Positions 40,627-43,659 of a stretch of DNA of 60,990 bases are shown here, piece by piece. The stretch is from Bacteroidota bacterium (GTDB taxonomy: Bacteria; Bacteroidota; Ignavibacteria; Palsa-1295). Within the stretch, counting starts at the first letter, position 1; each line of letters begins with the position of its first letter. The notes below the pieces were generated by a model that did no database searches, was not told the DNA's origin, and worked only from the letters and a program-made list of their open reading frames with translations. The stretch is from NCBI GenBank assembly GCA_021324685.1, contig JAJPIQ010000051.1, positions 1-60,990 of the forward strand, written 5' to 3'. The position numbers and the translations under genes were made by a program.

Positions 40627-40650
40627 TGCATTCCTGGTGTTAGGAATGCA
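40627..40650 (+). promoter_or_regulatory. Hairpin that would mask the ribosome binding site and start codon of the SpoU methyltransferase
   Basis: TGCATTCCT (40627-40635) is perfectly complementary to AGGAATGCA (40642-40650) around a six-base loop. The 3' arm contains the only Shine-Dalgarno-like sequence (AGGA, 40642-40645) and the A of the ATG. Folding would block translation, so this may be a thermosensor-like or protein-controlled switch. It could also be a weak terminator of the upstream lipoprotein gene, but no T-tract follows. Confidence 0.5.
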
Positions 40651-41456
40651 TGAGCTATCGTATCCACTACGATTATCCGGCCGAAGCGGTCCAATATTTT
40701 CGTTCTCTGAAAGGCAAAGGCGGACTTTCGGAACAAGGGCTCTTTATCGCGGAGGGTGAAAAGATCGCTCGGAAAGTTTTGGGACATCAACTCGAGATCG
40801 CCGCCGCCTACCTGACCGAGGAACGGTTCCAAATTTTAAAACCCCTGTTCGAGGATCGCTCGGGACCGACAGATATTTTTTTAGCGCCAAAAGAGGAAAT
40901 GGAGCGGGTGGTTGGCTATCCGCTTCATCAGGGAATTATGCTGGCGGCCCGAATTCCGATCCGCCGCACGCTCGAAGAAGCGATGAGCGACTGGCGCTCG
41001 CCGTGGATGGCCGTGGCACTCGACTCGATTGCCGATGCGGAGAACATGGGTGGCATTATCCGCAATGCTGCGGCCTTCGGCGCAAAGGCCGTCATTGTGG
41101 ACGACCAAAGTTGCGATCCCTGGCTCCGCCGTTCGGTCCGCGTTTCGATGGGAACGATCGTGGATGTGGAAATCATACGCGTGGACGATTTGCCATTAGC
41201 ATTGGAAACCCTTGGTCGAACCGGATTCATCCGGAGGATCGGGGCCTCGTTGTCTGAAACGAGTGTGGCCCTGAATGAAGTGGACTGGGAAGGAGATGCG
41301 ATCTTCGTCTTCGGCTCGGAAGGCTGGGGCCTTCGCCCCGCCGTTGCGGAAGCCTGCGACTGGCTTGCAAAAATTCCCATAGCCCCCCAGGTCGATTCGC
41401 TGAACGTCGGAGTTGCAAGCGGGATCTTTATGAACTGGTTTCGGAGACTGCATTGA
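40650..41456 (+). CDS. SpoU/TrmH-family RNA 2'-O-methyltransferase
   Basis: 268 residues. It should transfer a methyl group from SAM to a ribose 2'-OH of tRNA or rRNA in the cytoplasm. The SPOUT signature is complete: motif 1 Ala-Glu-Asn-Met-Gly-Gly-Ile-Ile-Arg-Asn (Asn132 to Arg138), motif 2 Phe-Val-Phe-Gly-Ser-Glu-Gly-Trp-Gly-Leu (219-228) and motif 3 Ile-Pro-Ile-Ala-Pro-Gln-Val-Asp-Ser-Leu-Asn-Val (242-253). An N-terminal substrate-binding domain (about 1-110) with Phe-Ile-Ala-Glu-Gly resembles the L30e-like part of RlmB-type enzymes. The exact target cannot be told. A hairpin covers its start. Confidence 0.9.
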   Translation: MSYRIHYDYPAEAVQYFRSLKGKGGLSEQGLFIAEGEKIARKVLGHQLEIAAAYLTEERFQILKPLFEDRSGPTDIFLAPKEEMERVVGYPLHQGIMLAARIPIRRTLEEAMSDWRSPWMAVALDSIADAENMGGIIRNAAAFGAKAVIVDDQSCDPWLRRSVRVSMGTIVDVEIIRVDDLPLALETLGRTGFIRRIGASLSETSVALNEVDWEGDAIFVFGSEGWGLRPAVAEACDWLAKIPIAPQVDSLNVGVASGIFMNWFRRLH

Positions 41457-41465
41457 ATTCCCCGT

Positions 41466-41492
41466 GGTGTGGGGCGAAATGCTATTTCGCCC
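41466..41492 (+). repeat. REP copy 1 (left end)
   Basis: GGTGT tag followed by a hairpin: GGGCGAAAT, loop GCT, ATTTCGCCC; the stem has nine base pairs plus a possible G-T pair. The whole 27-base sequence recurs inverted at 42168-42194. Confidence 0.9.
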
Positions 41493-41510
41493 TTTTCTGT
41501 TATCAAAAGA

Positions 41511-41532
41511 GGGCGAAATACCATTTCGCTCC
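41511..41532 (+). repeat. REP copy 2 (variant)
   Basis: GGGCGAAAT, loop ACC, ATTTCGCTCC: same stem core as copies 1 and 3 with two changes in the 3' arm. It lies in the leader of the transposase gene, 22 bases before its ATG, so it could also influence its expression. Confidence 0.75.
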
Positions 41533-41554
41533 ATACAGAGCACAGGTTGTTTTC

Positions 41555-42160
41555 ATGGAGCGTAAAAAATGTTACAGACGCGATCTTCCACATTTGCTTC
41601 CCAACGACGAACCTTATTTCATTACGTTCCGTCTCGCCCACACACTTCCTCGTAAAATTCTCGAAGAGCGCGCGCGGAAAGTGCAGAAGGGAGTTGTTGG
41701 CATGAGCTTTACGCAATTAGATAGCTATCTCGATCAGGGATACGGCTCGCTTTGGCTGAAGGAACCGGCTATCGCCGAGGTCGTCAAAGAGGCATTGCAC
41801 TATCGCGATGGGAAGGAATATGAGCTCCATGCCTATACCATCATGCCAAATCACGTCCACATGGTCATCACACTTGGTAATCAACTCAACCTGTTTGATG
41901 TTCTCCAATCGCTCAAACGACACACCGCACGGCAGTGTAATAAGATCCTGGCTCGGAGCGGCGCTTTCTGGCAGCACGAGAGCTACGATCACGTTATCCG
42001 AGATGGTGAATTTGGGCGAATTATTTTTTACATCCTCCGAAATCCCGTTAAGGCTGGTTTAGTGAGCACATTCAAGGAATGGCCTTATAGTTATGTAAGT
42101 CCTGAACTCGATGGGTTCGATGAAACGGAGTCTGAACAAACTCATTTCTCTCACCTCTAA
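41555..42160 (+). CDS. REP-associated tyrosine transposase (RAYT, IS200-like Y1 family)
   Basis: 201 residues from the ATG at 41555; the frame is open upstream through a REP sequence but that part has no family resemblance. The HUH metal motif is His100-Val-His102 in Met-Pro-Asn-His-Val-His-Met-Val, and the presumed catalytic tyrosine is Tyr159 in Phe-Tyr-Ile-Leu-Arg-Asn-Pro-Val-Lys-Ala-Gly. The start Pro-Tyr-Phe-Ile-Thr-Phe-Arg-Leu is characteristic of RAYTs. RAYTs nick single-stranded REP hairpins; they spread REP sequences but rarely move themselves. The frame and catalytic residues are intact, so the enzyme may be active. Confidence 0.92.
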   Translation: MERKKCYRRDLPHLLPNDEPYFITFRLAHTLPRKILEERARKVQKGVVGMSFTQLDSYLDQGYGSLWLKEPAIAEVVKEALHYRDGKEYELHAYTIMPNHVHMVITLGNQLNLFDVLQSLKRHTARQCNKILARSGAFWQHESYDHVIRDGEFGRIIFYILRNPVKAGLVSTFKEWPYSYVSPELDGFDETESEQTHFSHL

Positions 42161-42166
42161 AACAAA

Positions 42167-42194
42167 GGGGCGAAATAGCATTTCGCCCCACACC
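42167..42194 (-). repeat. REP copy 3 (right end, inverted)
   Basis: On the minus strand this is the same GGTGT tag and hairpin as copy 1; on the plus strand it reads GGGGCGAAAT, loop AGC, ATTTCGCCCC with ten perfect pairs, then ACACC. It lies seven bases after the transposase stop. Confidence 0.9.
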
Positions 42195-42207: not shown

Positions 42208-43659
42208 ATGCCTTTCGAACAGTTATCGATTATCCCGCCGATCCTTCGCGCGCTTCATGACGAAGGATACCGCACTCCCACGCCGATTCAGCAGCAAGCT
42301 ATTCCCATTGTCCTCGAGGGAAAGGACCTGCTCGGTGTCGCACAAACGGGGACCGGAAAGACGGCCGCGTTCGCAGTCCCGATCCTCCAGATCCTGGAAT
42401 CCCATAAAACACACGGGAAAAGAAAGCATATTCGCTGCCTGATCCTCACGCCGACGCGCGAGTTGGCGGTCCAGATCGAAGAAAGCTTCAAAGCATACGG
42501 GCGGTATTTGGGAATGAAAAGCGTGGTCATCTTCGGCGGCGTAAAACAGGGCGCGCAGACGCGATCGCTCCATCAGGGGGTCGATATTGTCGTTGCCACG
42601 CCGGGGCGTTTGCTCGATCTGATGGACCAGGGACACGTCGATCTGCAGCACATCGAAATTTTTGTGCTCGACGAAGCCGACCGTATGCTCGACATGGGTT
42701 TTGTCCGCGATGTGAAGGATATAATCACGGAATTGCCCGATCAGCGGCAATCGCTGTTCTTCTCTGCCACGATGCCGCCAGCGATCGTTTCGCTCGCGAA
42801 CGATATTCTCGATCATCCTGTGAAGATCGCGGTCACGCCGCCGGCAACGACCGTCGATATGATTCGGCAGGAACTCTATTATGTCGATAAGTCACAGAAG
42901 CCCGATCTTCTGCTCGATATTTTGGAGGATACGCGCATCCGTCACGCATTAGTGTTCACTCGCACGAAACGTGGAGCGGACGTCGTAGCAAGGACACTGG
43001 AACGAAATCGTATCAGCGCCGAAGCGATCCACGGCAACAAAGCGCAAAATGCGCGTCAGCGCTCGCTCAATAATTTTAAGTCGCAGAAAATTCGCGTACT
43101 CGTCGCGACCGACATCGCCGCGCGCGGAATCGATGTGGACGATCTCGAATACGTTATCAATTATGAGATCCCGAACGTACCCGAGACCTACGTTCACCGC
43201 ATTGGCCGCACCGGACGTGCGGGAGCGTCCGGTAATGCTATTTCCTTCTGCGCACCGGACGAGAAACCGTTCGTTCGTGACATCGAAAAGCTGATCGGCA
43301 AAAAAATTCCGGTCGCCCATGACCATGCTTTTGCACAAAGCGATCGGTCAAGCGCTCGTGAAACTCCGGCTCTTGTACGTAAGGAGGGGCCATCGAACAA
43401 TCGTCCTGCCCATCGAAATGATCGCCCCGACAATAGGAATGATCGGTCGCCAAGGAAAAATGACCGTTCTCAATCCCGGAATGATCGCTCGCCATCTCGG
43501 AATGACCGTTCGCCAGCCAGGCACAGAGAACCTCAGCAGGAGCCGCGCCGGCAGGATGGGAAACCTTCCCAACATCCCCAAAAGCCCGCTTCCAACTCCG
43601 GCCAAAAGCCGAAAGCGCAACATGGAAGACGGAGAAAGCGATGGCCGGGGCAGCGGTGA
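42208..43659 (+). CDS. rhlE: DEAD-box RNA helicase, RhlE type
   Basis: 483 residues. An ATP-dependent RNA helicase for ribosome assembly or RNA decay. Motifs in order: Q motif Pro-Thr-Pro-Ile-Gln (24-28), Walker A Ala-Gln-Thr-Gly-Thr-Gly-Lys-Thr (45-52), Pro-Thr-Arg-Glu-Leu-Ala (82-87), Asp-Glu-Ala-Asp (155-158), Ser-Ala-Thr (186-188), and near 330 His-Arg-Ile-Gly-Arg-Thr-Gly-Arg. The basic C-terminal tail (about 380-483) is low-complexity with several copies of a seven-residue Arg-Asn-Asp-Arg-Ser-Pro-x repeat, probably a disordered RNA-binding extension. The start is 14 bases after a REP sequence. Confidence 0.93.
   Translation: MPFEQLSIIPPILRALHDEGYRTPTPIQQQAIPIVLEGKDLLGVAQTGTGKTAAFAVPILQILESHKTHGKRKHIRCLILTPTRELAVQIEESFKAYGRYLGMKSVVIFGGVKQGAQTRSLHQGVDIVVATPGRLLDLMDQGHVDLQHIEIFVLDEADRMLDMGFVRDVKDIITELPDQRQSLFFSATMPPAIVSLANDILDHPVKIAVTPPATTVDMIRQELYYVDKSQKPDLLLDILEDTRIRHALVFTRTKRGADVVARTLERNRISAEAIHGNKAQNARQRSLNNFKSQKIRVLVATDIAARGIDVDDLEYVINYEIPNVPETYVHRIGRTGRAGASGNAISFCAPDEKPFVRDIEKLIGKKIPVAHDHAFAQSDRSSARETPALVRKEGPSNNRPAHRNDRPDNRNDRSPRKNDRSQSRNDRSPSRNDRSPARHREPQQEPRRQDGKPSQHPQKPASNSGQKPKAQHGRRRKRWPGQR

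Follow-up and report, generated by a model that had tools for sequence, protein, structure and literature searches.

The window, by which we mean the whole 60,990-nt stretch of an Ignavibacteria-type Bacteroidota genome analysed here, contains a RAYT gene set between inverted palindromes in the gap between two housekeeping genes, and the question it raises is whether this unit is a REPtron, a transposon of another kind or a transposase settled into a host role. The initial annotation had described two identical inverted REPs, and the 27-mers at 41466-41492 and 42168-42194 (the latter as reverse complement) were indeed the same sequence, GGTGTGGGGCGAAATGCTATTTCGCCC. No inverted match between the RAYT flanks exceeded these 27 nt, and the longest in 300 shuffles was 9 nt. 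Folded as single strands, the flank on the left, with its doublet, reached -25.8 kcal/mol (z -6.4) and that on the right -11.6 kcal/mol (z -5.4). The tag originally given as GGTGT is more aptly written GTGTGG and then falls within the known GT[AG]G type of foot; it lay 5' of the palindrome and faced outward at both ends of the unit. A third REP was present in the leader as claimed, but instead of a loose variant it paired in inverted orientation with the left REP, had one mismatch in the core and an outward foot of its own, and the two formed a REPIN-like doublet with a spacer of ~17 nt. From the REP foot at ~41464 to the end of the right REP, the unit occupied the gap between the neighbouring genes, as had been proposed (Table 1).

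Table 1. Features of the REP/RAYT unit and its neighbours, in window positions.
Feature	Position	Strand	Details
Left neighbour, outside unit	40650..41456	+	SpoU/TrmH-type RNA methylase gene (PF00588)
Left REP	41464..41492	+	Foot GTGGTGTGG, perfect 9-bp stem GGGCGAAAT, loop GCT
Inner (leader) REP	41510..41537	-	Reads CTGTATGGAGCGAAATGGTATTTCGCCCT on - strand; tag GTATGG
RAYT / TnpAREP gene	41555..42160	+	201 aa; HUH His100-Val-His102, W139-Q140, Tyr159 in YILRNP
Right REP	42167..42194	-	Perfect 10-bp stem; 27 nt identical to left REP; tag outward
Right neighbour, outside unit	42208..43659	+	RhlE-like DEAD-box helicase gene (PF00270, PF00271)

The RAYT reading frame was open throughout and retained its catalytic residues, as first reported, with both histidines and the tyrosine conserved in 97, 97 and 94% of 116 aligned homologues. 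The protein scored 85.4 bits against the NCBIfam profile REP_Tyr_transpos (NF047646, cutoff 80), and the nearest solved structure by sequence match was TnpAREP 4er8 (E 1.2e-7). When aligned to 4er8, W139, Q140, H146 and R149 matched the E. coli foot-contacting residues W94, Q95, H101 and R104 (residue list from PMC6006769), with D145 in place of E100, as in subclasses 2.5 and 2.7 (PMC6006769). The intact RAYT, the RAYT profiles, the 4er8 match and the cognate inverted REPs all bear out the identification as a REPtron: the earlier observation was real and correctly named, and the unit is a REPtron of the ordinary kind with few REP copies. Among described TnpAREP proteins it most resembled subclass 2.7 (and 2.4) of Quentin et al. 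2018 (PMC6006769), sharing NHVH, WQ, Y---NP and a length of ~200 aa; these subclasses likewise have long REPs and a GT[AG]G foot and are patchily distributed in several phyla. The likeness is one of motifs, not of their profiles, with YILRNP one residue off the printed motif YI[LR][NQ]NP, and the gene lacked the internal REP insertion typical of subclass 2.4. REPtron Ec of E. coli (4er8) has the same HUH-Y1 enzyme and inverted REPs around the gene, whereas the window stem is perfect, without the E. coli bulge, its foot is GTGTGG instead of GTAG and its genomic copies are few. REPtron Sm of Stenotrophomonas (group 3, PMC8266576) shares the short perfect stem and 3-nt GCT loop but has a GTAG foot, and its likeness is confined to the hairpin and does not extend to the protein.

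Taken as a whole, the locus is very probably a REPtron, a single-gene RAYT with cognate REPs at both ends that spreads REPs by nicking hairpins. TnpAREP is known to bind folded single-stranded REPs, cut at CT or CA and transfer strands, with the GTAG foot helping in recognition and site choice (PMC8266576). By analogy, a single-stranded REP would fold into a perfect hairpin, the RAYT would bind this hairpin together with the GTGTGG foot, and Tyr159 would nick nearby with a metal held by His100/His102, after which rejoining of strands would occasionally copy REPs or REP doublets elsewhere. That the window enzyme binds single-stranded DNA, cuts at CT-like sites and transfers strands is presumed from its counterparts in E. 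coli, Stenotrophomonas and Marinomonas (PMC8266576), and we infer in the same way that it would recognize its GTGTGG foot.

The initial annotation had looked to many paired copies genome-wide as support for an active system. We evaluated REP copy number in the 3.47-Mb genome by pattern searches allowing up to 3 mismatches. With at most 2 mismatches the REP core was found at 5 sites, comprising the 3 in the window unit, 1 at C44 and 1 at C66; allowing a third mismatch brought in the other half of the doublet at C66, along with one match at C38:41438 that may be due to chance, and the reversed-pattern control returned 0 matches. Copies outside the window do exist, therefore, and include one doublet, but they amount to three palindromes in two places (C44:28984 and C66:17331/17363), both between larger predicted ORFs. 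The many dispersed extragenic copies usual for REPs were absent for the window REP beyond these three palindromes. Since only two other places carry it, the pattern scans up to 3 mismatches ruled out that this genome has a large active family of the window REP, and copies this few suggest that its spread is weak or already over. The pair at 41464-41537, the one at C66 and one in the congener G004 have the outward-tagged inverted arrangement of a REPIN (PMC3116915) but are too few for a population, the window type numbering two or three and not hundreds.

Seven RAYT-like genes were found in the genome, most with private REPs. Palindromes of their own lay on both sides of most of the other RAYTs (C74:43780, C74:17109, C12, C2 and C74:19167), as read by eye from the sequence and partly picked up by script scans, with pairing less clear at the C16 RAYT than at the other paralogues. 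The C74:43780 REP had 24 matches at up to 3 mismatches and that of C74:17109 occurred in four places, so REP family sizes differ within the genome and that of the window is among the small ones. The C74:43780 unit (L008) constitutes a second REPtron, each end of which has a REP doublet, and a nearly identical REP was seen in a named Bacteroidetes MAG (L174).

Whether the unit arrived in its present gap by a clean insertion, as had been suggested, was assessed in six congeners (G001-G006). In none of them were trmH and rhlE adjacent, trmH being followed directly by secA in G005, and no empty trmH/rhlE site was found among the six; nor was the transposase seen at this place in the gene order of every relative, a result that would argue against mobility. 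RAYT orthologues with 51-55% identity were encoded by four of the six (G001, G002, G005 and G006), and the window RAYT clustered with them at a support of 88/28 in one tree and 100/94 in another sample. Flanks of these orthologues shared little DNA beyond the unit, namely REPs and short pieces. As they do not match each other, the unit has occupied different sites, though rearrangement of the host genomes may be another source of the differing flanks. Two REPtrons of the same REP type, 78% identical in DNA, were found at different sites in G001 (L273, L274). Stems of the orthologue REPs differed (GGAAGC..., GGGAAGG..., CGGAAC...) and the feet stayed close to one form (GTGTGG, GTGTG or GTGTAG); this pattern of steady foot and changing stem agrees with the coevolution described for RAYTs and REPs (PMC2817692, PMC6006769) and makes the genus useful for the question of how enzyme and hairpin coevolve. 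REPs of G003 and G004 shared the window core and tag, and included a complete solo doublet in G004. Separately, a decayed REP, GGGATCGAATGGTATTTCGTCC, was present in the leader upstream of the G004 rhlE gene (L236), a place without any RAYT match.

These comparisons bear on the alternative that fares best, that the RAYT has become chiefly a domesticated gene, inherited vertically, with a non-mobile role such as hairpin processing, its REPs being relics. This would differ from the REPtron explanation in present role and not in family. Such a role is possible, if doubtful: REP copies are few, orthologues persist in four of six congeners and RAYTs have been published as single-copy domesticated genes (PMC8049555), whereas the genomic site differs in each congener, enzyme and REP stems change together and G001 has two copies. 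A conventional IS200/IS605 element that transposes itself as a single-stranded circle is very improbable. The Y1_Tnp domain (PF01797) and the hairpins at the flanks would suit it, but the tyrosine motif is Y---NP without Y---Q, the IS200 equivalog (NF033573) scored 27.6 against a cutoff of 55, and the best paralogue is 44% identical, near-identical copies being absent from the genome; IS200/IS605 membership was rejected on all three counts of motif, profile and copy number. We give least credence of all to the hairpins being mere terminators or mRNA elements of neighbouring genes that happen to match around the RAYT, since their stable, intergenic folds would agree with this but the inverted 27-nt identity, the conserved tag and the copies at unrelated loci do not.

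The REPtron is set within a class in which RAYTs are common, not rare, with a match in 142 of 245 genomes. The class includes Ignavibacteria, as four of its RAYTs in the tree had the same sequence as records named Ignavibacteria or Melioribacter. Of 110 homologue loci, 56 had outward GT[AG]G-tagged palindromes upstream, 48 downstream and 28 on both sides, compared to 0.8 per side in mononucleotide shuffles. Inward tags were also common (51 upstream and 38 downstream at the same loci), as is expected of doublets. A conserved first loop base (G) was sought across the tagged REPs and gave no clear signal, partly because palindromes tagged on two sides count in both orientations. A literature search found no study of REPtrons in Ignavibacteria-type bacteria, to which the window unit adds a well-formed example from a class rich in RAYTs. 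Another genome (G097; L080, L145-L152) had one and the same palindrome core in 118 copies, several with GTAG feet; it was rated 100% complete, and protein, PF01797 and NF047646 searches found no RAYT in it.

Some RAYT matches outside the window sat in ORFs of 500-1550 aa, and these are more surprising than the window unit, which is a free-standing member of the family. In the long ORFs we examined, the RAYT domain and REP-like flanks lay in-frame within a host protein (L286, L278, L280, L281, L282, L283, L284, L279, L285, L287, L288-L291, L293 and L294). Among the hosts were enzymes of restriction type IIG (with Eco57I and TaqI_C from Pfam; PADLOC REase_MTase_IIG, E 8e-237), DUF1156 methylases, one of which matched HmaB, HsdR-like proteins (L289-L291) and, truncated at the contig start, a RecG-like ORF (L287); the HsdR-like, RecG-like and L293/L294 hosts were named from sequence reading alone. 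With the insert removed, host halves aligned through each other's junctions, for example between G088 and G150, where the insert sites differ, and nearly all embedded RAYTs retained the HUH and Y---NP motifs. Two of the genomes (G037 and G150) are single contigs, which argues against misassembly. On the tree the embedded label required 5 changes compared to 14 in shuffles, and since at least 3 of these changes are separated by well supported branches, embedding had several origins. A clade of six embedded RAYTs (100/96, a bootstrap not fully settled) was associated with type IIG genes. REPs lying in-frame in genes have been described before, as have REPs within RAYT genes (PMC3733652, PMC6006769); our literature searches turned up no paper describing a whole REPtron within a restriction gene, which speaks weakly for novelty. 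We lean slightly towards the view that lineages of this RAYT family in the same phylum lie in-frame inside genes, above all those of restriction-modification, with the whole REPtron putatively read as an internal domain and one lineage tied to type IIG genes, mostly at one site. If this is true and the embedded proteins are made, they would be either passengers resembling inteins, for which no splicing is known, or functional fusions in which a REP endonuclease is joined to a defence enzyme, and the persistence of a domesticated transposase in defence genes could be tested on them. The RAYT genes at L264-L270 had extra REP-like DNA in-frame right after the HUH motif, an insert of the kind described for subclass 2.4 (PMC6006769).
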